NCBI GenBank assembly: GCA_951640165.1
Contig: OX621252.1
Location: forward strand, 26,619,934 to 26,683,933
Reading direction: 5' to 3'
Source: Pseudoips prasinana
Lineage: Eukaryota; Arthropoda; Insecta; Lepidoptera; Nolidae
Length of the DNA stretch: 64,000 nucleotides
Made by a program: the position numbers and the translations under genes. The notes beneath the pieces were generated by a model. That model did not search any database. It saw only the letters and a program-made list of their open reading frames with translations, and was not told the origin of the DNA. Positions 3,889 through 62,969 of this stretch are shown one piece after another. Positions within the stretch are counted from its first letter, which is position 1, and each line of letters starts with the position of its first letter.

Positions 3889-5257
3889 ATCAAAATACAA
3901 AATCAATATTTAGTTTTAATTCCGCTAATTGTCAGTTTAATCATGCTGGGATGCAATTTGCACCGCCCTCCCGCCCGCAAAAATGTGCACATGCAAAGAA
4001 GGACAATATAAAAAGCAAATTACATGCGCCAGTACGATACCCAACACGTGTTTCGGTCCTCCACGGACCATTCTCAAGGGCTGCTAACTCGTCGAGTGCT
4101 CGAAGGAGACTAAAAGTCAACGAGGCGAGCGCTCTTTTATATACTACCAGCCGCATGGACAATTATTTCTAACTACCCCCAAATATTCGTAGTAAAGGAG
4201 ATGAAACTAAATTTGTTTGGTCATTCAACAATGCGAAACTATTACTGCTATGTTTTAATATTTCTAATTGTTCCAACACACATAACCGGAAACTTTTATC
4301 ACAATTATGTAACATATTATACGTATTATTGTCGCCCAAGGAATGGCCAGTTTCAATTAAATGTTTGGCGTAATGAGATTTATCAGGATGGCCATTCCTA
4401 TAAGCAGCTACATGCTCTTTATACCGTATTTCAAAATTTCGGCCTGTCTGACCTATATATACCGCGTCACAATCATCGCAGACCAACCTATACACGCCGG
4501 ATTTCTTGCAATTTTCCAAATGATCTTTTCCATTACAAAGACGTCGTATAGTTTGGTCTGTCCGAAATGCAACGTGAATATTATTTTTACGGAGTAAATT
4601 GGCAATTCTATCTGAAATTGGGCCCATATAGGTCAGACTACCAACATATTTGTTAATACGGTCAGGGGGGCATGCATACAGTAAAGAGCGAACCCTACAT
4701 CTCTGATTATTTTTAATCAAATTATCAATAATAGATTTAGGATAACCGTTTGATAACGCGATTTCATAAAGAATATTAAGTTCTTTTATGTAATTCTCAT
4801 TAGACAAGGGGACCGACATTAACCTATGAACATAGCTGCGGAAGGCAGCTAGTTTATGTTGATTGGGGTGACAGGATGAAGCTGGAATAGCCATATCGGT
4901 ATGTGTTGGTTTCCGATAAATTTGAAATTCTAATTTATTATGGACATTAGTGATGGTGAGGTCAAGAAAATTAAGGGATTTTTGTGATTCTAATTCCAAT
5001 TTAAATTTTATTTTAGGGTGGAGATTATTTAATTTAGTAACAAATGAATCAATTTGACGTTTAGTACCAGACCAACAGATTATTATGTCATCAACGTATC
5101 TATAATAAAATAAAATGTTGGGTTCGCCCACTATATATCTACGTTCAAAATTATCCATAAATATCTCTGCCATTAGTGGACTTAACGGTGAACCCATGGC
5201 CAACCCTTCCTTTTGGCGGTAATATTGATTGTTAAAACGAAAATAATTTTGTTGCAT
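3889..5257 (-). mobile_element. Penelope-like element, inverted partial copy (left arm)
   Basis: This is the near-exact reverse complement of 5766-7134: positions pair so that x + y = 11023, with no indel over about 1.37 kb and only about two substitutions noticed (near 3912 and near 4233). It contains the element's 3' terminal region (about 3940-4168) and a truncated reverse-transcriptase/endonuclease frame. Penelope-like elements are known to carry partial copies arranged as tandem or inverted pseudo-LTRs, so this arm and the longer copy to its right are best read as one insertion. Confidence 0.9.
4169..5257 (-). pseudogene. Truncated Penelope RT/GIY-YIG frame (362 codons)
   Basis: Identical in translation to the last 362 codons of the frame at 5256-6854. 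It begins at the inversion junction, so it lacks the upstream fingers region and RT motif A (the LDVDSLFTN block). It keeps the AMGSPLSP block, the YVDD catalytic motif and the GIY-YIG nuclease domain (GVYRL ... AVYIGQTGR). With one of the catalytic aspartates missing it cannot encode an active RT by itself. The ATG at the start arises at the GCATGCAT junction and is probably accidental. Confidence 0.9.
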
Positions 5258-6854
5258 GCATTATTATGTTAATGATGTCATCCAGGGTGACGATTTTGAA
5301 TCCCTTGATTCCGATCCCACCAAAAAGTTTACGATTGAGTTAAAAGATGCTATTAAGGGTACGTCTTACATCTCTCCAGATCAATTAAAAAATATTATCC
5401 CCATGAACCCACGATCACCTGTTTTGTATGGGTTGCCAAAAACACATAAAGCAAACGTTCCTATTCGCCCTGTTGTCTCTCATATTGGTGCCCCCTCGTA
5501 TAATTTAGCCAAACAACTTAACGTCTTTTTAAGTAAAAAATCATCTTTTCAACCTCAATTCAGTTTAAAAAATAGTTTAGACTTAATTTCAAAAATTAAA
5601 GATACTCAAATTCCATCTTCCGCTAAGTTACTGTCCCTAGATGTTGATAGTTTATTTACCAATATCCCTCATGAGGAATGTTTACATATTCTGGGTGAAC
5701 ACTTTGAGAGACAACGGTTACATCCTGGAGAGATGTATGATCTACTTAAACTCACAAAAATATGCATGCAACAAAATTATTTTCGTTTTAACAATCAATA
5801 TTACCGCCAAAAGGAAGGGTTGGCCATGGGTTCACCGTTAAGTCCACTAATGGCAGAGATATTTATGGATAATTTTGAACGTAGATATATAGTGGGCGAA
5901 CCCAACATTTTATTTTATTATAGATACGTTGATGACATAATAATCTGTTGGTCTGGTACTAAACGTCAAATTGATTCATTTGTTACTAAATTAAATAATC
6001 TCCACCCTAAAATAAAATTTAAATTGGAATTAGAATCACAAAAATCCCTTAATTTTCTTGACCTCACCATCACTAATGTCCATAATAAATTAGAATTTCA
6101 AATTTATCGGAAACCAACACATACCGATATGGCTATTCCAGCTTCATCCTGTCACCCCAATCAACATAAACTAGCTGCCTTCCGCAGCTATGTTCATAGG
6201 TTAATGTCGGTCCCCTTGTCTAATGAGAATTACATAAAAGAACTTAATATTCTTTATGAAATCGCGTTATCAAACGGTTATCCTAAATCTATTATTGATA
6301 ATTTGATTAAAAATAATCAGAGATGTAGGGTTCGCTCTTTACTGTATGCATGCCCCCCTGACCGTATTAACAAATATGTTGGTAGTCTGACCTATATGGG
6401 CCCAATTTCAGATAGAATTGCCAATTTACTCCGTAAAAATAATATTCACGTTGCATTTCGGACAGACCAAACTATACGACGTCTTTGTAATGGAAAAGAT
6501 CATTTGGAAAATTGCAAGAAATCCGGCGTGTATAGGTTGGTCTGCGATGATTGTGACGCGGTATATATAGGTCAGACAGGCCGAAATTTTGAAATACGGT
6601 ATAAAGAGCATGTAGCTGCTTATAGGAATGGCCATCCTGATAAATCTCATTACGCCAAACATTTAATTGAAACTGGCCATTCCTTGGGCGACAATAATAC
6701 GTATAATATGTTACATAATTGTGATAAAAGTTTCCGGTTATGTGTGTTGGAACAATTAGAAATATTAAAACATAGCAGTAATAGTTTTGCATTGTTGAAT
6801 GACCAAACAAATTTAGTTTCATCTCCTTTACTACGAATATTTGGGGGTAGTTAG
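5256..6854 (+). CDS. Penelope-like reverse transcriptase with GIY-YIG endonuclease (5'-truncated)
   Basis: Open for 532 codons. In order: an N-terminal segment with the block PVLYGLPKTHK (about 56-65), RT motif A LDVDSLFTN (about 128-136), motif B GLAMGSPLSP (188-197), catalytic YVDD (224-227), a motif-D/E region with LNFLDLTI (265-272), then a GIY-YIG domain (GVYRL 424-428, AVYIGQTGR 435-443, and YKEH, SHYAKHLIETGHS after it). This order, RT then GIY-YIG, is diagnostic of Penelope-like elements, which retrotranspose by a target-primed mechanism. The family's single ORF is usually longer at its N-terminus; here the frame is cut at the inversion junction (about 5257), so the start codon is probably not the native one. 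No stop or frameshift is seen, in keeping with a recent insertion. It overlaps the inverted copy only at the junction bases. Confidence 0.93.
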   Translation: MHYYVNDVIQGDDFESLDSDPTKKFTIELKDAIKGTSYISPDQLKNIIPMNPRSPVLYGLPKTHKANVPIRPVVSHIGAPSYNLAKQLNVFLSKKSSFQPQFSLKNSLDLISKIKDTQIPSSAKLLSLDVDSLFTNIPHEECLHILGEHFERQRLHPGEMYDLLKLTKICMQQNYFRFNNQYYRQKEGLAMGSPLSPLMAEIFMDNFERRYIVGEPNILFYYRYVDDIIICWSGTKRQIDSFVTKLNNLHPKIKFKLELESQKSLNFLDLTITNVHNKLEFQIYRKPTHTDMAIPASSCHPNQHKLAAFRSYVHRLMSVPLSNENYIKELNILYEIALSNGYPKSIIDNLIKNNQRCRVRSLLYACPPDRINKYVGSLTYMGPISDRIANLLRKNNIHVAFRTDQTIRRLCNGKDHLENCKKSGVYRLVCDDCDAVYIGQTGRNFEIRYKEHVAAYRNGHPDKSHYAKHLIETGHSLGDNNTYNMLHNCDKSFRLCVLEQLEILKHSSNSFALLNDQTNLVSSPLLRIFGGS

Positions 6855-7134
6855 AAATAATTGTCCATGCGGCTGGTAGTATATAAAAGAGCGCTCGCCT
6901 CGTTGACTTTTAGTCTCCTTCGAGCACTCGACGAGTTAGCAGCCCTTGAGAATGGTCCGTGGAGGACCGAAACACGTGTTGGGTATCGTACTGGCGCATG
7001 TAATTTGCTTTTTATATTGTCCTTCTTTGCATGTGCACATTTTTGCGGGCGGGAGGGCGGTGCAAATTGCATCCCAGCATGATTAAACTGACAATTAGCG
7101 GAATTAACACTAAATATTGATTTTGTATTTTGAT
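5258..7134 (+). mobile_element. Penelope-like element, longer copy (spacer plus right arm)
   Basis: 5258-5765 is the unique part between the inverted arms and 5766-7134 is the right arm. After the ORF stop at 6854 the terminal region holds about 280 bases with the hairpin-like block GGTCCGTGGAGGACCGAAAC near 6954-6973. The arms end within the shared block atttagNgttaattcc / tgataatatg side near 7134. Degenerate relatives of the same terminal region occur at about 17930-18380. Confidence 0.85.
6945..7000 (+). ncRNA. Possible degenerate hammerhead-like motif in Penelope terminal region
   Basis: On the + strand a CTTGAGAA block is followed by a stem GGTCC/GGACC and then directly GAAAC, with a GTA triplet further on. 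Hammerhead ribozymes have the order CUGANGA, stem II, GAAA, stem III, NUH, and they are known from Penelope-like elements. The first core block here departs from CUGANGA, so the motif may be inactive or only hammerhead-like. The inverted arm carries the mirror copy at about 4023-4078. Confidence 0.35.
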
Positions 7135-20816: not shown

Positions 20817-21446
20817 TCTAGAAATATATCATAGTATTTTATAGCTCATAGCTAGATGCTCTCACCGGTTCGTAATACTCCAGTAATCGGCGAGGTTAAG
20901 CAACTAGGCTCGCGGTCAGTCCATAGATGGGTCAATCCGCGGAAATCCATTAATGGCGAATATATGATAATAATAAATTAAATATCATAGCTGCATTTTT
21001 TTTTTACTTTACATGACATTTCTTAGATATTTTTACGTAAGGCTCCGCTCTTTAAAATAGTTAACTACCTTTATTTATTTTATTATTTCAGTTAACACGC
21101 ATCAAACGTCATCACCATTTACGAAAAAAAGTCGAGTATTAAACTTCCTTATTTATTTTCCAAAAAATGACAATGCAGTTCTTTTTTCGTCCGGGTCGTC
21201 AATGAGAACAGACGTGTTGCTAATTTTACTCTGAGTTTTTACTATCCAGCCATTCTAAATTATAACATAACATAACGACATAAAGTGCTTTTTAAACTTT
21301 TGTTACTATCACATAAAAGTGAAAGGTAAATCGACCGTGAACGCGGAGTGCCTGTGCGAGGAGTGCGTTGCAGTCATAATTGCCATCTCTGTCGCGTTAA
21401 CATCGGAAGCTTCTTGCGTAGCTTGTAACGTGATATTGTTATCAAC

Positions 21447-22409
21447 ATGTCGGTGCAACGATCGCCCGTGTCAAAAACTTCACCTATGGCGGAACACTCA
21501 CAGTCGGAAACCGACCTAAATACCATGCAAGAATGCGACGTATCATTTGTAAATGTTAAGCGAAATAAGCGGCTTCGTACCAACCGGCCTAGTTCACCTA
21601 AGATTGAACGAAATCTTGAGGAAGATATAATGGAATTGTTACATACCTGGAAAACGGAACTTCAGACAAAAGTAGATGAGATTTACAAAAGCCAAAACAC
21701 ACTTATTACTAAACTCTCCACCGATATTTTGGAACTAAAAGCTCAAAATAGTAAAATTCAAAAATCAAATGATGAAATGGTACTATCTATATCATTTATG
21801 AATAAACAATACGAGGAAATAAAAGCCGGTCTGGGTTGTTTACAAAAGGAACGACTAGAGCAAAATAGGTACATTGAAAACCTAGAGAGAAAAATACAAG
21901 ACCTGCAACTCAAATCCAGGTCTTCAAATATGGAAATCAGAAACATCCCACAGCATGTAAATGAAACTGTCACGACTCTTAAAAATACAGTTTGTAAGAT
22001 TGGACAGACCATTGGCACGCCAATCTCAGAATCTGATCTACGTGACATATATCGGCTACCAGGAAAACCTGGTACAACACGTCCGATAGTAGCAGAGTTC
22101 CAGACCGTTCAACTCAAACTGAACACATTGTCTGCCGTACGGGAATACAATAAAAACAAAAAGAGGGAGGATAAATTAAACACGGTGGCCCTCGAGATCC
22201 CCGGCCAACGTCAAGCCGTATATATTTCTGACTATCTACCTGCTAGCTCCAAGAAGTTGTTTCATTCGGCAAGAGAGTTTGCAAATCAGAACAGTTTTAA
22301 ATACTGTTGGACTCACAATGGAAATATCTTTCTTCGTAAAGCAGATGGTGAGAAACAAATACTCATTTCCTCAGAGAAGTTCCTGTTGGACTTGCGTAAA
22401 ACTCTGTGA
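21447..22409 (+). CDS. Non-LTR retrotransposon ORF1 protein
   Basis: 320 codons. Residues about 60-160 form a long heptad-type coiled coil (rich in L, I, E, K; e.g. ILELKAQNSKIQKSNDEM), which in LINE ORF1 proteins drives oligomerisation. Then SRSSNMEIRNIP (157-168) starts an RRM-like part, and the C-terminal 65 residues (ISDYLPASSKKLFHSAREFA ... TLRKADGE-like end) resemble the C-terminal domain shared by insect LINE ORF1 proteins and the baculovirus FP protein. Role: RNA binding and chaperone in the retrotransposition particle. No zinc knuckle is visible. The start is the first ATG in a frame that fits the coiled coil. Confidence 0.85.
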   Translation: MSVQRSPVSKTSPMAEHSQSETDLNTMQECDVSFVNVKRNKRLRTNRPSSPKIERNLEEDIMELLHTWKTELQTKVDEIYKSQNTLITKLSTDILELKAQNSKIQKSNDEMVLSISFMNKQYEEIKAGLGCLQKERLEQNRYIENLERKIQDLQLKSRSSNMEIRNIPQHVNETVTTLKNTVCKIGQTIGTPISESDLRDIYRLPGKPGTTRPIVAEFQTVQLKLNTLSAVREYNKNKKREDKLNTVALEIPGQRQAVYISDYLPASSKKLFHSAREFANQNSFKYCWTHNGNIFLRKADGEKQILISSEKFLLDLRKTL

Positions 22410-22611
22410 CTAACTCCTTGCTATATTACCAACTTATGTTTCTTACCTAATTTTATCACTGTATATCCTAGATTAATAATAAGTTACGTATATCCTTGCA
22501 TGTTAAATATTATATTGTATATCTGTGTTTTACCTGAATCAAAAATAATAATAGTTTGTTACCTATCACATAAAACAAAACGACACACTTTTTTGTACAA
22601 AAACACTTATA

Positions 22612-23899
22612 TTAGGTCTTTACCTATGAAATTGCCGTTCTGCAGTACTGGCCATTTCAAATCAAAATAATTTTTGTTTGGCTAAGAATTCTAATTTCAA
22701 ATTAATTTTATTTTAAAAACATGGATTCTTTTTTCCAAAAGTAGTCATTTCTTTATTGATTAGTGTTACATTTTCATCGCATTTCAATCTTTTTCGTCAT
22801 CATGGATACGTTAAAAATTCGAGTAATTATGGAATATGAGTACCGTCGTGGCAGCAACGCGGCACAAGCGGCACGCAACATCAACGACGTTTACGGAGCT
22901 AACACTACAAACCAACGCACCACCTGTTATTGGTTTGCTCGCTTCCGTTCTGGAAATTTCGACCTGAAAAATGAACCTCGCGGTCGTCCGAAGACTTTGG
23001 TCGACAATGACGAATTAAAGGCGGTTGTGGAAGCTGATGATACACAATCTACGGCTGAATTAGCAGCAGCTTTCGACGTTAGCGTCAAAACAATATTGGT
23101 CCATTTGCGTCAAATTGGCAAGGTAAAAAAGCTTGACAAATGGGTGCCCCACGAACTCAATGATCGCCAGCGCGAAGTACGCGTCGAGACGTGCCTTGCA
23201 CTGCTCAACAGACACACAAATGAAGGAATTTTGAACCGCATTGTTACCTGCGATGAAAAATGGATTCTGTTTGATAACCGCAAGCGCTCAGCAAGTTGGT
23301 TGGATCCTGGTTCAGCACCTAAACAATGCCCTAAACGAAAACTTACCCCTAGAAAAGTGATGGTCACTGTTTGGTGGTCTAGCGCCGGTGTGATTCATCA
23401 CAGCTTCTTACCAAACGGGGTGAGCATTACTGCAGATGTGTACTGTGAAGAACTGAGCACAATGATGGAGAAGCTGGCGCATCTCCAACCAGCATTGGTC
23501 AATCGCTCGTCTCCGCTGCTCCTGCACGACAACGCGCGACCTCATACTGCACAGCAGACGGTCTCCAAGTTGCAAGAACTGGGGTTGGAAGCTCTCCGTC
23601 ATCCGCCCTACTCACCAGACCTTGCGCCTACAGACTACTACTTTTTCCAGAATTTGGATAACTTCTTGGCGGGAAAAAAATTCAATACCCGAGAGGCAGT
23701 ACAAAATGCCTTTGAAGAATTTGTTGCCTCCCGTCCAGCTGATTTCTTTAAGAAGGGCATCAATAAACTGCCACTGCGATGGCAAAGATGCATTGATTGC
23801 ATGGGTGATTACTTCGATTAATACAAATAAAAAAATTCATGAAAAAAATTCGTTTAAATTTTTTCATACAAAACGGCAATTTCATAGGTAAAGACCTAT
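22612..23899 (+). mobile_element. Intact mariner element inserted in the LINE
   Basis: 1288 bases. Left TIR TTAGGTCTTTACCTATGAAA... and right TIR match over 28 bases with one mismatch at the first base; TA duplications at 22610-22611 and 23900-23901. Inserted between the two ORFs of the retrotransposon, so it is younger than that LINE copy. Confidence 0.95.
22802..23821 (+). CDS. Mariner transposase
   Basis: 339 codons without interruption, close to the family's usual 345. An N-terminal helix-turn-helix region (residues 1-110, with GRPKT at 61-65), the linker motif WVPHEL (114-119), and the catalytic triad D151 (CDEKW), D243 (HDNARPH) and D278 (PYSPDLAPTDYYFF). Exactly 34 residues separate the last two aspartates, the mariner D,D34D signature. 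It performs cut-and-paste transposition at TA. The start at 22802 (MDTLKIRV) is preferred over an upstream in-frame ATG at 22763 because mariner proteins begin close to this motif. All diagnostic residues are intact, so activity is possible. Confidence 0.96.
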   Translation: MDTLKIRVIMEYEYRRGSNAAQAARNINDVYGANTTNQRTTCYWFARFRSGNFDLKNEPRGRPKTLVDNDELKAVVEADDTQSTAELAAAFDVSVKTILVHLRQIGKVKKLDKWVPHELNDRQREVRVETCLALLNRHTNEGILNRIVTCDEKWILFDNRKRSASWLDPGSAPKQCPKRKLTPRKVMVTVWWSSAGVIHHSFLPNGVSITADVYCEELSTMMEKLAHLQPALVNRSSPLLLHDNARPHTAQQTVSKLQELGLEALRHPPYSPDLAPTDYYFFQNLDNFLAGKKFNTREAVQNAFEEFVASRPADFFKKGINKLPLRWQRCIDCMGDYFD

Positions 23900-24217
23900 T
23901 ATTACTTATCGTCTATTGATAGTATATTACCTAACAAATAATGCAAAAACACACAGATCTATGTACAAAATTACACATATTTTTAATACTAATCGTTCAC
24001 TAATAGCTTATTGTCTTAAATATAATATAAAAATATACATAATTTTCTACAAAAACACTCATATATCAATTATCATATTTGTACTTATAAAAATATACAC
24101 ACATTTACTTCAGTTTCAGCTATATAAGTTAAATAACCTTACATTCCCAAGCGCTAAAAAATGCACCTCGTCTCTGGTTTCGGTAGAATCATTATTTATT
24201 TTCTATTATTATTTAAA

Positions 24218-27157
24218 ATGGCAAATACAAATTACATAAATAAAGAATTAGATTCTAATTCCTACGCGCATTCATATATTTGTCATCCAGAGGATTGCAA
24301 AAGGTATCTTAATAGTAAAGCCCTTAAAATAATTCACTTAAATATATGCAGCATAAATAAAAACTTCGACCAATTTTGCGTAATGTTGTCTGTGGCAGAT
24401 GTTTCTTTTGATATAATTGTCTTGACTGAATGTTGGTTGAGTAAAGCTAAAACATTGCCTACCCTGGAGGGTTATGTAACACACGCCTCAAAATCATTAT
24501 TAAACCAAAATGATGGTATAATATTCTACATAAGTAAAGAACTTACATGTAAAATAAGTGAACCCCTCTTTAAAGGAGGAAGTTGCATGGTTTGTCAGAT
24601 TGACCAACTTTTTGGGATCGTGGCAATCTACCGTTCCCCATCTTTTAAATCTCCTAACGATCACCAAGATTTTATAGACAGTTTAAACAATATATACAAT
24701 AAACTGACGACGCAACACTCGATCCTTATAGGGGACATGAATATAAATATTTGTTCTAATAACTCCGATCCTTTAAGCGATGAATATTTAACAGTTAATG
24801 CAACTCACGGCTTCTTTCCCACACATTCGTACCCTACTAGAATCAGCCAAAAATGTGTAGACCACATATTTGTTAAATCAAATCTCCCCACTACAACATT
24901 AGTGCTTGAATCCCACATAACAGACCATACCCCCTTAGTTTTATTCTTGGATCAGTCGAGGTCCAGTCATAGTAGTCACTATTACACTAAAGCTTGTATC
25001 GATTTTCCTACTATAAAAACTGAAATAGAAAACACAGATTTCTCTTACTTACTACACTTAAATAACGCAAATTCTGCAATGAATAGCTTTATTAGTACAG
25101 TCTCTACCATCATATCCTCTCACACAAAAATCACTCATATCCCTAGGAAAAATAGAATACTTAAGCCATGGATGACACCAGGACTTGTACGTTGCTTAAG
25201 GAATCGAGACAAGTTGCATATTAAGTCCAGAAAATCTCCTGAAAATATGACGCTTAAAATAACGTACACCCGTTATCGCAACTTCTGCAATGGTCTCATT
25301 CGTAAGATAAAGTTGACTTACAACAAGAATCTCATAGACAGTGCAGGCTCTGACCCTAAAGCTCTCTGGAAAGCCATAAAAAACGTCACAAACACTCATA
25401 AAAATAATGACGGTCCTGAAGCACTCTTGAACATCCAGTCAGACCCTAAGCAGGCTACAAACTATGTTTGCAACTTTTTCTGTAGTATAGGCAGGAACTT
25501 AGCTAATAAAATTATCCATTCCAGTAATAGTACCACAGCTCTATTTCATGACTCAAACCTTTCAACATTCAAAGGAAGTAATTCAATGGTTTTATCAGAA
25601 GTATGCGAAGCTGAAATAGATAGTATAATATCTCAGTTACGTCTGAACTGTGCCGTGGGTTGGGATGGAATATCATCTTACGCCCTTAAACTAATCCGGG
25701 AAACTTTGGTGCCTCCTTTAACCTATATTTACAACCTTGCAATAAATACTGGTGTGTTCCCTGATGCTTTAAAAAAAGCACTTATACATCCGGTCTACAA
25801 GAGTGGGGACAGAGACTGTGTCAACAATTATCGGCCCATTTCGGTTTTATCCGCTTTATCCAAAATAATGGAAAGGTTTCTAAATAATTCATTAAAAAAG
25901 TATCTTAACAAATTCAATATTATTGCTAAAAATCAGTATGGGTTCAGGCCTGGTGTTTCCACTGAAGATGCTGTGATTGACTTAACCAATATTATTGTCA
26001 AGAACTTAGATCATAATAACAGATGCCTGTGCATTTTTTTGGATCTCTCCAAAGCATTCGACACTGTCTCTGTCCCAATACTACTTGATAAGCTGGAGAG
26101 CATTGGTGTTAGAGGCATTACCCACAAACTATTTAAGGATTACTTGTCGAATAGAACTCAAAGAGTAAAAATTGGTGATCACTTAAGTGATGAGTTTCAC
26201 GCCTCATACGGCACCCCACAAGGGAGTATCATAAGTCCCACACTCTTTCAGCTATACGTGAATGATCTCTGTACAATGTCACTTCCTCATACTGACATCT
26301 TTTGTTACGCTGATGACACTGCAATTGTCATAACGGGTCCTAACTGGCCACTAGTGAAAGAGAGAGCTGAATATTCTCTTAAACAAATTATGACCTGGTT
26401 GATGAACAATTTGTTAACGTTAAATCTCAATAAGACACTCTATATCCCATTTTCTTTATCCAAAACTAATACTCCACCTTGTGATTTTAGTATAGTCGCC
26501 CACAGTTGCCTCTCGGTTAATAACTGTGACTGTCAAAAATTAACTCAAGTCCATAACACAAAATACCTTGGAGTTCAACTCGACAGTAAACTGACGTGGG
26601 CCACTCAGGTAGATACGGTCAAAACTAGAGCTAGAAGGCTAATCTATGTCTTCAAAACTCTGCGTGACACAACCACCCACGACAAAGTCAAAATGGTTTA
26701 TCTGGCCCTCTGTCAGTCCATTCTCCAATATTGCATCCCGGTTTGGGGAGGGTGTGCTAAAACACATTTAATGGGATTGGAAAGAGCACAAAGAGCTGTG
26801 CTCAAAGTCATGAATAAAAAACCAATAAGGTATCCTACCTTTCAACTTTATGCCGAAAATAAGGTTCTAACAGTTAGGCAGCTCTTTGTGCTCAGAACGA
26901 TATTACTAACTCATCGGAATGTTCCACTCCCTGACGCTAATAAACGTAATAAACATCAGGTCTGCTCAAATAGCCGTATAAAAACCTCTTTTGCCAGAAA
27001 ACAATTCAAGAGTCTTGGATGCAAACTCTATAACACCTTAAATAAAAAAGAAAAAATTGTAGGACTAAATAGCCATGAGGTTAAAAAGAGAACTACTAGT
27101 TGGCTACTGCAACTGGACTACGAAAGTACCGAAGCGCTTTTAATTTTTTGGGATTAA
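24218..27157 (+). CDS. Non-LTR retrotransposon ORF2: endonuclease and reverse transcriptase
   Basis: 979 codons from MANTNY (an upstream in-frame ATG at 24161 is less likely). EEP/APE-type endonuclease: HLNICS (40-45), LTECW (69-73), GDMNINI (172-178), VDHIF (214-218), SHITDHTPL (232-240), with the catalytic E71, D173, N175, D215/H216 and D236/H237 in place. RT: NYRPISVLS (537-545), YGFRPG (574-579), FLDLSKAFD (607-615), GTPQGSIISP (665-674) and CYADD (696-700). No RNase H domain is seen after the thumb. It nicks target DNA and reverse-transcribes the element RNA in place. No stops or frameshifts. ORF1 lies upstream on the same strand with a mariner between. Confidence 0.95.
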   Translation: MANTNYINKELDSNSYAHSYICHPEDCKRYLNSKALKIIHLNICSINKNFDQFCVMLSVADVSFDIIVLTECWLSKAKTLPTLEGYVTHASKSLLNQNDGIIFYISKELTCKISEPLFKGGSCMVCQIDQLFGIVAIYRSPSFKSPNDHQDFIDSLNNIYNKLTTQHSILIGDMNINICSNNSDPLSDEYLTVNATHGFFPTHSYPTRISQKCVDHIFVKSNLPTTTLVLESHITDHTPLVLFLDQSRSSHSSHYYTKACIDFPTIKTEIENTDFSYLLHLNNANSAMNSFISTVSTIISSHTKITHIPRKNRILKPWMTPGLVRCLRNRDKLHIKSRKSPENMTLKITYTRYRNFCNGLIRKIKLTYNKNLIDSAGSDPKALWKAIKNVTNTHKNNDGPEALLNIQSDPKQATNYVCNFFCSIGRNLANKIIHSSNSTTALFHDSNLSTFKGSNSMVLSEVCEAEIDSIISQLRLNCAVGWDGISSYALKLIRETLVPPLTYIYNLAINTGVFPDALKKALIHPVYKSGDRDCVNNYRPISVLSALSKIMERFLNNSLKKYLNKFNIIAKNQYGFRPGVSTEDAVIDLTNIIVKNLDHNNRCLCIFLDLSKAFDTVSVPILLDKLESIGVRGITHKLFKDYLSNRTQRVKIGDHLSDEFHASYGTPQGSIISPTLFQLYVNDLCTMSLPHTDIFCYADDTAIVITGPNWPLVKERAEYSLKQIMTWLMNNLLTLNLNKTLYIPFSLSKTNTPPCDFSIVAHSCLSVNNCDCQKLTQVHNTKYLGVQLDSKLTWATQVDTVKTRARRLIYVFKTLRDTTTHDKVKMVYLALCQSILQYCIPVWGGCAKTHLMGLERAQRAVLKVMNKKPIRYPTFQLYAENKVLTVRQLFVLRTILLTHRNVPLPDANKRNKHQVCSNSRIKTSFARKQFKSLGCKLYNTLNKKEKIVGLNSHEVKKRTTSWLLQLDYESTEALLIFWD

Positions 27158-27188
27158 ATAGATAAATTTGAACTTACCACCCACCGCA

Positions 27189-27191
<3 letters not shown>

Positions 27192-27231
<40 letters not shown>
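27192..27231. repeat. (CA)n microsatellite
   Basis: About 20 CA units just after the ORF2 stop, within the 3' untranslated region of the LINE. Poly-A, poly-T and poly-T tracts follow at about 27250, 27270 and 27480. Confidence 0.95.
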
Positions 27232-27234
<3 letters not shown>

Positions 27235-27893
27235 ATATAATTCTTTACTAAAAAAAAAAAAAAATGTATTTTTTTTTGTTTGTTTGTTTATTAGTATTTG
27301 TATATTTATTGTTTGTATATTTATCTACTTTTAATTGTGATTGATACACGTCTGTCTATTGTATCACATCCTTGACTGAGCACTGTCTCCCAAGATACAG
27401 GCTTCAGCCTAGTTTGGGAACCAGGACCAGTACTTATTGTAATTCGTATGTATCATGGTAAAGAATCCGAATTTTGTAATTTTTTTTTTTTTTTTTTGTG
27501 GCAAATAAACATTTTATTATTATTATTATTATATAATATACTCTTCTGTAGTTTCCGTTTTTATTCTTATATTTCGAAAGTACACATTATCTTAAACAAC
27601 ATAATAAATCATGAAGTGATTTGACAACAAATAACATATAATAAAAAATAAAATAAATTTTGTCACAGAGATTCGTCAACACCGTTCCGGCACTGTCAAA
27701 ATTGTATTTCTCGAATGTTCTTACTACCTACCGCGATCGACAAGTCGACGCCTCCTTTCCTCGGTCCCCTCAGTCTCTCTTACGAAGTGAAGCGGAGCGC
27801 ACGTCCATTTGACCACGCAAATTTTTCGACTAACAGTAGTTTGTAAACGGTTTGTCAAATATTTAAGTCATCACCATTTCCACAGAAAACCAG

Positions 27894-28271
27894 GTAAGTA
27901 CCAATACAAGATCTTTTTTAAATATGCACATTTGTGTGTTTTAGGTACTTAATCATAAAAATGGCTGGTTGTGCGCTTTGTAGCTTGGTATTTAGGTACA
28001 AAAATCGTAAGAAGACACATACGTCATAACCATCATCATCATTACCATTTTTTCTGTGTTAATGGTAATGTTAAAATGTGAATGGTAATGACATACGGTG
28101 TGTTAATAAGTCCCATTTAATGCGTTTGCTTTAAAAAAATCGAAAAGTTAGTTTATTAAAGAAGTCTAGAAGCTAGACAGCCATTAACCTGCTAAAAACT
28201 CCACAGTATATTTATTTCTAGTTTACATTTTTACATGTAAATATTGATGTAAATTTTGTTTATTCTTTTAG
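27894..28271 (+). other. Predicted 5'-UTR intron of the 727-codon gene
   Basis: A strong donor ccag|gtaagta at 27894 and a pyrimidine-rich acceptor tttattcttttag ending at 28271, 8 bases before the ATG at 28279. 378 bases. It contains three of the ATTACCAT-type motifs. The GC-richer segment at about 27720-27840 upstream could hold the promoter. Splicing is predicted, not shown. Confidence 0.6.
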
Positions 28272-28278
28272 AAAAATC

Positions 28279-30462
28279 ATGGACAGAAAAAAGAAATCCA
28301 AGGAAAATAAGCGGTTAGAGAAGCAAAAGATTGCTAGAAGAATAAAATACTCTGAAATCAAGGCAGATCCAGTTCTCTACGAGTTAGAAAAGGAAAAAGA
28401 AAAAACAAGATATCAGAACAGAAAAGATCAAAAGAAAATTAAAAGCGTGAATGAACTAACTCCTCGCGATCAACGGGAAAAAAGGAAGAAATGGCGCGAA
28501 GCTTCAAAAAAATACAGAGAAAATAAGAAAGAAGAGTCTAAAAAAAAACCAGAGTTCCCTGAGGTAAGTGTATTTATTGATGCAACGATAAAAGACAGCA
28601 ATGAAATAGAGGCAAAGTATGAAGATCCCATAAAAATAAATAAATCTCCTCAAGCTGATGTAAAACTTCGAAGAATTCGATACATAGAACAGAAGAAAAG
28701 AAAGTACCTTATGAGAATAATTAAGAAGCTTAATGAGGAGAACAATCAGTTAAAAGTAAAGCTTAATATGTGTATGAGAGAAAAGAAGAATAAAGAAAAT
28801 AAATTAGAGTCAGCTGAAAAAGTTAAAAGAGTGATAAATAAAGAAAAGGGTAAAGAAGATAATCGAATTGGACAATTGGTAAGAAAAGTGCGCAACTTTT
28901 ATCTTGACGACTTAAACAGCACAATGGGAGCAGGAAAGAAAGAGTATATGACAAGATTGAAAGTACAAAAGCAAAAACGCTACATGACAAGCACACAAAA
29001 AGTATTGCATCAGAAGTTCATGACTAAATATCAAATAAAAGTTAGTTATAGCTTTTTTTGTAAGCATAGGCCGTTTTGGGTATTGACTCCTAAGAGTGCC
29101 CAAAGGGACACATGCAAATGCATCGTTCACGAAAATATTGATCTCATGGCCAAAGCATTGAAAACATCTTCTATAATAGACGAGCCAGACTGTGATGCAT
29201 TAATAAAGAGTATGTGTTGTTGTATATATGAAGAGAAATGTCTGAGGCGAGAGTGCCAATACTGTAAAGATAAGTTAGTACAGTTCAAGGAATTTTCTGA
29301 TGATCAAGATATTACTTACTGTAAATGGATACGTGCGAGAGAAACTGTTAAAACAAAAAAAGGCCAAAAAATTATAACAATCATGAAAAAAGAAGAGATA
29401 AAAGCCACGCCAAGAGAATTAATTAATGCTTTGATTGTAAGTTTACCAGCATTTTTTAAACATATTTACAAAATTCATAACCAATATATTAGCCTGAAGA
29501 AATTAAAGGATTCAACGCCTGTTAACTGTGCTGTAATTCACGCAGACTTTTCTGAAAACTATGGATTAAAATTTAATAAAGAAGTACAATCCATGCATTT
29601 TGGTGGAAGTCGAAAAGAAGTTAGCCTTCACACAGCAATAATCTACAGTTTTGATTTTGCAACTAGTTCAACAAAACCAAAATCAATTTGTACAACGAGT
29701 TCTTGTTTGAGGCATGACGCTCCAGCTGTTTGGGCACACTTTGTTCCTTTGATACAAAAAACCATCAAAGATAATCCATTTATTGACACCTTACATATTC
29801 AAACAGATTCCCCGACTTCCCAATATAGAAATAAATACATATTTCATATGATTCCACAATTACACAAAGAATTCCCACAAGTAAAAATAATGACGTGGAA
29901 CTATACTGAAGCTGGTCACGGCAAGGGTGCTGCCGATGGTGTCGGGGGAACAATAAAAAGGACAGTTGATTCCTGCGTCAATCATGGTATTGATGTAGGC
30001 AGCTATGACAAGTTTATGCGTGTGTGCCGAGAAAATATAACAAATGTGACCCTAATTGATGTACCCGAAGAAAACATCAGTGAGATAGAGAAGAAAATCC
30101 CAAAGAACTTGCAGCCATTCAGAGGAACTCTAGAAGTCCATCAAGTGTTGTGGAAAAAGGGAATCCCTACTTTAACATTTCGAAACGCAAGCTGCTTTGA
30201 ATGTGACTGCGGAATCATATGCGCCCATGGGAAACACCTTGGATTTTTTAATATACCACAAAGTTTGAGCTCGTCTCCTATTCCTGATACAGATAAAGTA
30301 ATACCCCTCATAGCTACAAAGAGTGATTATGGTAATGCAGTATTCGCAAATATTACTAACACGATGCAGGCGTCCACATCAACTGTAGACAATATTTGTG
30401 TTGCTGGACCTTCTAACATAAAGATTTTATCTAATAAAAGAGTTATAATAACAAAAAAATGA
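28279..30462 (+). CDS. Uncharacterised DDE-type transposase-like protein
   Basis: 727 codons, no interruption. Residues 1-90 are very basic (many K/R, e.g. KENKRLEKQK) and 130-190 are coiled-coil-like with a basic start, together suggesting DNA binding. 278-330 form a cysteine-rich block (TCKCIVHENIDLM, MCCCIYEEKCLRRECQYC) that may bind zinc. The core has HADFSENY (D423), LHIQTDSPTSQYRNK (D510) and NYTEAGHGKGAADGVGGTIK (E544, D553), with 33 residues between D510 and E544: an RNase H-fold DD(E/D) arrangement. A second cysteine cluster CFECDCGIICAH follows at 639-650. I recall similar SENY...HGKGA(A/P/V)DG(V/I)GG proteins as uncharacterised multi-copy proteins of animals, but cannot name the superfamily. 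The alternative is a domesticated host gene. Role in transposition is inference. Confidence 0.7.
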   Translation: MDRKKKSKENKRLEKQKIARRIKYSEIKADPVLYELEKEKEKTRYQNRKDQKKIKSVNELTPRDQREKRKKWREASKKYRENKKEESKKKPEFPEVSVFIDATIKDSNEIEAKYEDPIKINKSPQADVKLRRIRYIEQKKRKYLMRIIKKLNEENNQLKVKLNMCMREKKNKENKLESAEKVKRVINKEKGKEDNRIGQLVRKVRNFYLDDLNSTMGAGKKEYMTRLKVQKQKRYMTSTQKVLHQKFMTKYQIKVSYSFFCKHRPFWVLTPKSAQRDTCKCIVHENIDLMAKALKTSSIIDEPDCDALIKSMCCCIYEEKCLRRECQYCKDKLVQFKEFSDDQDITYCKWIRARETVKTKKGQKIITIMKKEEIKATPRELINALIVSLPAFFKHIYKIHNQYISLKKLKDSTPVNCAVIHADFSENYGLKFNKEVQSMHFGGSRKEVSLHTAIIYSFDFATSSTKPKSICTTSSCLRHDAPAVWAHFVPLIQKTIKDNPFIDTLHIQTDSPTSQYRNKYIFHMIPQLHKEFPQVKIMTWNYTEAGHGKGAADGVGGTIKRTVDSCVNHGIDVGSYDKFMRVCRENITNVTLIDVPEENISEIEKKIPKNLQPFRGTLEVHQVLWKKGIPTLTFRNASCFECDCGIICAHGKHLGFFNIPQSLSSSPIPDTDKVIPLIATKSDYGNAVFANITNTMQASTSTVDNICVAGPSNIKILSNKRVIITKK

Positions 30463-30932
30463 AAACTAATATTATAAGTAGTTGTAGTAAGTGTTTCAAA
30501 TTTGATCTCATTTAGTATTTTGATTGTCGAAGAATAGTTGACTGCAATTTGCAAATTTTTTTTAGTTCCTCTTCTATTTTATTTTTTTTTAATTCATCAA
30601 TGTGGATCATTCATATTGTCACCAATAAAAGAAATACTGGGCTGTTACGATGATTCCTAATTTGTTTTATAATTAAACATAGATTATATTTAGTAAACTA
30701 ATTGTACGAATGACTTAATTTCCAAAGAATTAGCCAAAAATCGTTTAATCAGTGAAAAATTTTATTGTTAGGATTTTTTTAAGTTACCTTTATACCATTT
30801 GGTTGTTATCGTTTAGAACATCTATACCTACCTACCTACCTACGAGTATGTATCAATCGTTGATTTGTGATATTTTATTATGATTATAGTGATTCATAGC
30901 AGAAAGATATAATATGTTATTTACTCTTTTTC

Positions 30933-31012
30933 ATCATTCCCATTAACATATTGTCATTCTCGTTAAAGAAAAGTCATTACCATGATATAAACGTCATTAC
31001 CACTTTAGTTAA
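30933..31012 (+). repeat. Four 20-bp-spaced GTCATTACCAT-type repeats
   Basis: Units begin at 30933 (ATCATTCCCAT), 30953 (GTCATTCTCGT), 30973 (GTCATTACCAT) and 30993 (GTCATTACCAC), exactly 20 bases apart. Two inverted units, both AATGGTAATG, lie at 28061 and 28081, again 20 apart. Spacing of about two helical turns suggests protein-binding sites, here probably for the encoded transposase. Confidence 0.8.
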
Positions 31013-31179
31013 ATAACTTTGAAAATCGATAACTTTTGATTCTCTTGTTGGATTTCAGTGCCTTCAGTAGTTTAGTAATGGTTATTATAAAAACTATTTC
31101 TTTTTTGCGTTTAGCACGCATTTCCGACCAGTTTAAAAAAAAATACAAAATAAATAATAGAGAATCAAAACGGCGGATC

Positions 31180-31350
31180 CACCCAGATGGGTGACCACCA
31201 AAGTGGTTTAATTTGTGAGCGTCTCCTTGCCTCGGAGAGAACGTTAAGCTACCGGTCCCAGTTGTAATAATTAGGCGACAGTCGTTAAGCCATGTCAGAG
31301 GCCTGGGCGGCTTGAAGAACTCTGGCACTAGGGTAACCACTCACTATGCG
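31180..31350 (+). repeat. Dispersed repeat (gttaagccatgtcagaggcc family)
   Basis: Contains gagcgtctccttgcctcgg, cgttaagctaccggtccc and gtcgttaagccatgtcagag, followed by gggcggcttgaa. Relatives on the same strand: 34100-34310, 48060-48235, 62405-62640, and scraps at 9745-9810 and 20870-20960. Probably the 3' region of a LINE family; not proven. The span 31063-31180 shows nothing else. Confidence 0.75.
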
Positions 31351-62404: not shown

Positions 62405-62640
62405 AAACAGCTAGATGCTCTCACCTTTCTGGAAGTGGTGGCGAGTTCAAGCAAGTAGGCTCGCGGTCCGTCCATTGATGGCCGCCGAAGTGGTTTAATT
62501 CCTGAGCGTCTCCGTTCTTCGGAGGGTACACTAAGGTTTCGGTTCCTGTTGTAGCGAATAGGCAACAGTCGTTAAGCCATGTCAGAGGCCTAATGGGCAG
62601 CTTGAACAACTCTGTCAGGGTAACCACTACCCATACGATA
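62405..62640 (+). repeat. Dispersed repeat (gttaagccatgtcagaggcc family), best copy
   Basis: Includes gctagatgctctcacctttc, aagtaggctcgcggtccgtc, gaagtggtttaattcctgag, gtcgttaagccatgtcagag and gcttgaacaactctg. All recognised copies lie on the + strand. Confidence 0.75.
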
Positions 62641-62969
62641 AGCAAGTCGCCCTGCTACAAGAGAGTAAAGAAACCGCCAAGGCTACAAGCCACACATTTA
62701 ACAATAATACACCAATTATACCAATCCGGCGCGGACGACACCCGTCTGTGTCACCTAATCTAAATATAGGCGCCATAGCTAAGATACATTATGTAGGTCA
62801 AGGTCCTGTACAAGGTCACCCATGGCATGCGTACTCTCTTTATATGGCAGCTATAAGACTCTTGTTTTCTCGTTTCCGAGTGAAGTGAGCAGTTGTCACA
62901 GTAATATTTAGACACGACACAGTAACTAAAGCACTAATAATGTTTTTAAACTTTCGCGATTTGTACACA

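Follow-up and report, generated by a model that had tools for sequence, protein, structure and literature searches.

A probable Sola-type transposon in the moth Pseudoips prasinana and the spacing of its subterminal sites

A 64,000-nt stretch of contig OX621252.1 of the moth Pseudoips prasinana (the window, whose positions serve as coordinates throughout; features lie on the plus strand unless stated) carries a long open reading frame (ORF) whose protein has no Pfam match near the curated cutoff (best E 8.9). The locus raises the question of what kind of mobile element encodes this protein and where that element ends. A preliminary description, made from the sequence alone, had proposed an intact but unplaced DDE-type transposon at 27689–31062. 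We conclude, with a probability of about 0.83, that the window holds one copy of a Sola-type cut-and-paste DNA transposon that is both young and autonomous. A Sola-like transposon is of a known kind; the near-constant spacing of its largely family-specific subterminal sites is unusual.

Transposase, copies and element ends

The transposase ORF runs from ATG to stop over 727 codons (28279–30462) and is uninterrupted, in agreement with the preliminary description; no other ATG-initiated ORF of at least 80 amino acids (aa) occurs between 27547 and 31184 in any of the six frames. Structure prediction, which had been proposed as a check, returned at high confidence a catalytic domain with an RNase H fold similar to that of retroviral integrase and of Mos1, its core spanning about residues 417–568. 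In an alignment of relatives, D423, D510 and D553 were invariant or nearly so. The acidic residues had been picked out earlier from three quoted motifs, with the third acid left as either E544 or D553. Conservation upheld all but E544, which is replaced by Ala in 15 of 56 alignment rows, and we therefore took D553 as the third acid and rejected E544. Triad and predicted core together support a DDD transposase, a narrower form of the DDE-type call. Two cysteine clusters noticed earlier are conserved at residues 279–329 and 639–648, and the N-terminus, first described as a basic coiled coil, is basic and helical. The 5'-untranslated region (UTR) probably contains an intron, as suspected earlier (GTAAGT...TTTTAG, 27894–28271). 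Acceptor-like counterparts, consisting of a pyrimidine tract and AG directly before the ATG, occur in six (fam2–5, fam7 and fam9) of the eight further families compared below, not in fam6 or fam8; donors were sought in fam1–5 alone, with none in fam5.

We next turn to the ends, which were defined by aligning paralogous copies, another check proposed earlier. In the assembly of 1.126 Gb and 56 contigs, 61 of 910 candidates were scored, and copy counts are lower bounds. The window copy belongs to a family, fam1, with at least ten two-ended copies (both termini recognised; the window's included) spread over nine contigs. At least six copies, again counting the window's, keep the full-length frame open, and several others are shorter or broken. 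Aligned pieces of fam1 are 98.9–99.9% identical to the window, with a leftward limit at 27547 and a right limit at 31184–31187 in copies whose stored piece included that end. In the other copies, the common sequence runs about 245 bp left of the 27547 equivalent, up to GGGTCAATCCGCGG, and the piece absent there was recovered in the window at 20929–21180; genome-wide, eleven fam1 left ends were found. Comparison with the nine other two-ended copies thus placed the true termini of the window copy at 20929 and 31184. Its first 252 bp (20929–21180, 99.6% identical to L003) are severed by a long interspersed nuclear element (LINE; 21181–27546) from the remaining 3638 bp (27547–31184), which are common to L001, L003–L010 and L024. 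The terminal inverted repeats (TIRs), GGGTCAATCCGCGG at 20929–20942 and CGGCGGATCCACCC at 31171–31184, match at 11 of 14 bases, and the target-site duplication (TSD) AGAT stands on both sides (20925–20928 and 31185–31188). A related host-repeat copy without the element, an empty site at 62409–62646, matches the two flanks, once joined, at 76% across the junction. The limits 27689 and 31062 were thus too narrow, as in every other two-ended copy the common sequence reaches past them and 27689 is the end of no aligned copy; nor is the window copy intact, being split by the LINE. A TIR and TSD scan of the window copy alone had gone to a wrong site, with a best score of 14.1 and just a 2-bp TSD; eight shuffles gave maxima of 9.2–12.9, and both true ends lay outside the scanned ranges.

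The 4-bp flanks match in nine of the ten two-ended fam1 copies (AGAT, GGTA, GTCT, AGCT, AACC, TGGT, AACC, ACCT and AGAC), in 3/3 fam2 copies and in 11/11 fam3 copies, giving 23 of 24 for the three multi-copy families. Ends in these families were set by copy comparison, so the flank matches are an independent test. Exact ends, GGGT...ACCC, and 4-bp duplications are therefore shared features of the copies. TIRs match at 11/14, 13/14, 10/14, 13/14 and 13/14 bases in fam1–5, respectively. Any two of the six intact ORFs are separated by no more than 7 bases (range 0–7), with variation at ten codons that is nonsynonymous at six; this points to recent spread. The eleven fam3 copies are 99.2–99.8% identical. 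Judged by such sequence comparison, the three multi-copy families look recently active, which would make them candidates for new gene-transfer tools. Further fam1 sequences include the one-ended fragments L039, L043 and L047, of which one is a left end of 422 bp and two are right ends. The two-ended copies L001, L003, L004 and L006 and the right-end fragment L047 contain a tandem duplication (about 483 bp; window 30131–30616, ORF end and 3' UTR). It is absent from the window copy, L005, L007–L009 and L010/L024, so that either the family has two subfamilies or the duplication was gained and lost repeatedly.

These copies bear on two readings other than a transposon. A domesticated host gene of transposase origin would account for the long intact ORF and for named homologues labelled hypothetical or uncharacterised, but ten near-identical two-ended copies, spread over nine contigs and bearing TIRs, with TSDs in nine of the ten and a LINE interrupting one, make it extremely improbable. 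Many dispersed near-identical copies are also what a retrotransposed gene family would leave; against this stand exact TIRs in common, 4-bp TSDs and a probable intron retained in the copies, and we give it next to no weight. The preliminary description had named a single-copy gene without shared flanking repeats, or a fold lacking an RNase H core, as signs that would speak against a transposon; we found multiple copies, TSDs and a predicted RNase H core.

Relatives and superfamily placement

Database searches returned 45 relatives of the transposase at E≤1e-3, the named ones mainly from moths and also from a beetle, a planthopper and a spider. A hypothetical protein of 499 aa from Helicoverpa armigera comes closest, with 86% identity. 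A search from the divergent relative P0044 extended the set to Daphnia, a stick insect and a click beetle, and a third, alignment-based search to an ant, a parasitoid wasp and Hydra. Where named, the relatives are annotated as hypothetical or uncharacterised. Of ten relatives submitted to Pfam, nine had no match above cutoff and the tenth, P0045, was a piggyBac protein. Thirteen pattern matches in viral contigs included none related to the transposase. The Daphnia relatives (P0050, P0100, P0106, P0107 and P0109) bear the database name ‘Cc8L18.2-like’; ‘Cc8L18.2’, presumably a clone name from a parasitoid wasp that was carried over to them, was not found in the literature searched. The locus thus supplies precise ends, TSDs, a triad and a confident domain model for a transposase family without a Pfam match here, with relatives recorded in moths, beetle, planthopper, spider, Daphnia and Hydra.

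TSD length and sequence separate the element from several superfamilies. hAT and P elements duplicate about 8 bp, and the 4-bp TSDs led us to reject both. MULEs, with TSDs of 7–12 bp, were rejected on the same ground, and Tc1/mariner, with its 2-bp TA, because the TSDs here are 4 bp and varied in sequence (MULE and Tc1/mariner TSDs as given in PMC10741241). piggyBac and Kolobok target TTAA (PMC9587614), which occurs just once among the 23 matching TSDs of fam1–3. The element further differs from Mos1/mariner and retroviral integrase in its sequence, with about 10% identity, in its third acid, the D of HGKGxxDG, and in a TSD of 4 bp rather than TA.

Sola elements, according to PMC10741241, have DDD transposases, a 4-bp TSD, lengths of mostly 2–9 kb, TIRs of at least 11 bp and very variable termini. 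The P. prasinana elements show a DDD triad in an RNase H-like transposase (from conservation and predicted fold), a 4-bp TSD in 23 of 24 two-ended copies, lengths of 3.9–5.4 kb across nine families, and variable TIRs within the Sola range, imperfect in fam1 and fam3. This agreement in triad, TSD and size makes Sola their most likely placement, and ‘unplaced’ was too strong a word. Repbase distinguishes three subgroups, Sola1, Sola2 and Sola3 (PMC4455052). Sola2 of the amoebozoans Dictyostelium fasciculatum and Polysphondylium pallidum has, according to PMC3627910, an AT-rich 4-bp TSD, TIRs of 12–21 bp, an 888-aa transposase and a Fanzor1 passenger gene. The P. prasinana element resembles it in TSD length, short TIRs and transposase size, and differs in its TSDs and in having no second ORF of at least 80 aa. 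The TSDs of fam6–8 are ATAT, TTAT and ATAT, taken from a scan that demanded a match, and AT-richness is not established as a requirement for all Sola2.

Several observations weigh against a young, autonomous Sola element. The placement draws on structural traits as described, not on sequence, and fam1 TSDs are mixed, compared with the AT-rich TSDs of the amoebozoan Sola2 elements (PMC3627910). A Foldseek search of the full-length model against PDB found nothing at E≤0.001, and the domain model gave three PDB rows, all herpesvirus terminase nucleases. One two-ended fam1 copy of the ten, L007, has unmatched flanks (TGTT/GTAC), and the TIRs of fam1 and fam3 are short as well as imperfect. Across the six intact copies, codons with nonsynonymous changes (six) are no fewer than those with synonymous changes (four), giving no sign of within-family selection. 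Binding, end pairing and excision are steps that we infer. A fold search of BFVD also had no match at E≤0.001, and the structural match lists contain no row named Sola, which excludes nothing.

A DDD transposon with a 4-bp TSD might instead lie outside Sola1–3 and form a separate group, recognisable by GGGT/GGTT termini and the HGKGxxDG third-acid motif. Such a group would fit the lack of Pfam matches for the window protein and nine of its ten relatives, the terminal GG[GT]T common to nine families, and TSDs that are not AT-specific, unlike those of the amoebozoan Sola2 elements; GGGT termini and non-AT fam1 TSDs match no Sola subgroup among the printed descriptions compared. However, the Sola description combines DDD and a 4-bp TSD with very variable termini and so covers the observed traits, and a new group is not called for. 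Sola2 elements have also been named in an insect, in the genome of a parasitoid wasp (PMC7822920). We consider a separate group improbable and retain the Sola placement.

Subterminal sites across nine families

The nine families compared were drawn from 30 loci and four of 34 further regions; more exist among 64 match rows. Six are represented by one copy each (fam4, L025; fam5, L030; fam6, L054; fam7, L055; fam8, L056; fam9, L057). Their ends are the best-scoring pair from a scan in which a 4-bp match was a condition, and their TSDs accordingly carry no independent weight; TIRs of fam6–9 match at 16/16, 16/16, 13/16 and 14/16 bases. For L027, L028 and L029, no ends were found within the stored flanks. 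All families start with GGGT except fam9 (GGTT), and their proteins are 30–53% identical by pairwise BLASTP. The first 850 bases are not alignable between families at E≤1e-3, save for one 51-bp piece shared by fam6 and fam7.

Clusters of one short motif on both sides of the gene, already noticed in the preliminary description, stood up to counting. With at most one mismatch, TCATTACCA occurs six times in the 977-bp left part and three times in the 717-bp right part, against averages of 0.33 and 0.36 (maxima 3 and 2) in 200 shuffles. Motif scanning placed TCATCACCA at element positions 181 (21109–21117) and 567 (27868–27876), direct sites TCATAACCA and TCATTACCA at 723 and 738 (28024–28047), and two inverted sites 20 bp apart at 762 and 782 (28063–28091, minus strand). 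On the right, TCATTCCCA, TCATTACCA and TCATTACCA lie at −251, −211 and −191 from the end (30934–31002). The motif changes among families: TCATTACC in fam3 (as in fam1), GTCATTA in fam2, TCATTAGT in fam4 and fam5, TCTGTGG in fam6, GTGGACA in fam7, CATATCGGTG in fam8 and GTGTGTTA in fam9.

Positions change far less. Six of nine families have sites at +181–186 (fam1, 2, 3, 5, 6 and 8), six at +376–384 (fam2, 3, 4, 5, 6 and 8) and six at +565–576 (fam1, 2, 3, 5, 8 and 9), with fam7 lacking sites at all three. Direct sites at +721–781 and inverted sites at +759–805 are found in all nine. Right-end sites, often about 21 bp apart, fall between −267 and −173 in eight families, while fam9 has −79 to −34 instead. 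At the mismatch levels used for these positions, scattered single hits also occur elsewhere (e.g. fam1 +37, +594 and +685). With hand-chosen seeds, the averaged direct-strand profile from +1 to +700 peaked at 380, 185 and 566, and 0 of 5000 circular shifts reached either statistic. Because the whole region was known before those seeds were chosen, the test was rerun blind, with script-picked seeds from +700–850 and the right end alone and scoring over +100–650. Peaks appeared at 379, 185 and 573 (194-bp steps); 0.4% of shifts produced a peak as high as the highest one observed, 0 of 5000 equalled the summed height of the top three, and the reverse-strand control peaked at 5.2 vs 9.4–9.9. The fam6 and fam7 seeds were AT-rich and probably wrong, and were retained in the average. 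Largely family-specific motifs thus hold near-constant distances from the ends, which is unexpected.

The motifs are most likely transposase-binding sites on a fixed ruler. Promoter or host-factor sites offer another explanation, since several fam1 left sites lie within or near the probable 5'-UTR intron; yet sites are also found downstream of the gene, with similar right-end distances across families, and the motif differs between families that share one genome and its host factors, with positions retained. We regard that explanation as unlikely, though worth keeping in mind, and continue with transposase binding. The transposase would be made from the single ORF, with its short 5'-UTR intron, bind the family-specific 8–9 bp motif at subterminal sites and pair the two ends. 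Cleavage at GGGT/ACCC would be carried out by D423, D510 and D553 with metal ions, and joining to target strands 4 bp apart would produce the 4-bp duplication. The constant site-to-end distances suggest a fixed geometry in which both ends are arranged as the complex forms.

A more speculative version, which we hold as rather doubtful, is a conserved ruler at +185/+379/+573 with a fourth cluster at about 720–805 and a mostly ~21-bp phased right array ending about 173–195 bp from the terminus, in which sequence changed and position was largely kept. Its step is near one nucleosome repeat; if the ruler is real, the ends might be synapsed in phased nucleosomes, or the transposase might place nucleosomes on its own ends. 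Tn7 ends are likewise asymmetric, with TnsB sites spread on the left and closely phased on the right. The ends here share that layout, but in most families the sites closest to the termini are set about 180–190 bp inward, and the comparison implies no relation in sequence. Among the papers listed by literature searches on Sola and on subterminal site spacing, we recognised none with positional site arrays; the Sola descriptions compared here leave unmentioned the positional subterminal sites that are present in the P. prasinana families. If the arrays are bound by the transposase, the nine families of this single genome would form a natural experiment on eukaryotic transposon-end geometry under free sequence change.

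Insertions in the window copy and other repeats

The LINE that splits the window copy (21181–27546) is foreign to the transposon and is flanked by a 7-bp duplication (TGCAGTT/TGTAGTT). Domain matches identify its ORF1 (21429–22409, Baculo_FP_2nd) and its ORF2 (24161–27157, endonuclease and reverse transcriptase). It would have inserted later, after transposon base 252, leaving the left end and first site 6.4 kb away from the remainder. The transposase ORF of this copy remains open and does not differ in sequence from the L001 ORF. Nested in the LINE between ORF1 and ORF2 is a mariner (22615–23896) whose 353-codon frame is open and has HTH_48 and Transposase_1 domains. Its TIRs agree at 27 of 28 bases, and each is bordered by TA, as the scan demanded. 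Elsewhere in the window, 3889–7134 holds a 1381-bp inverted repeat with arms 99.6% identical, whose ORFs have a reverse transcriptase and a GIY-YIG match below the curated cutoff; it probably consists of two head-on copies of a Penelope-like element.

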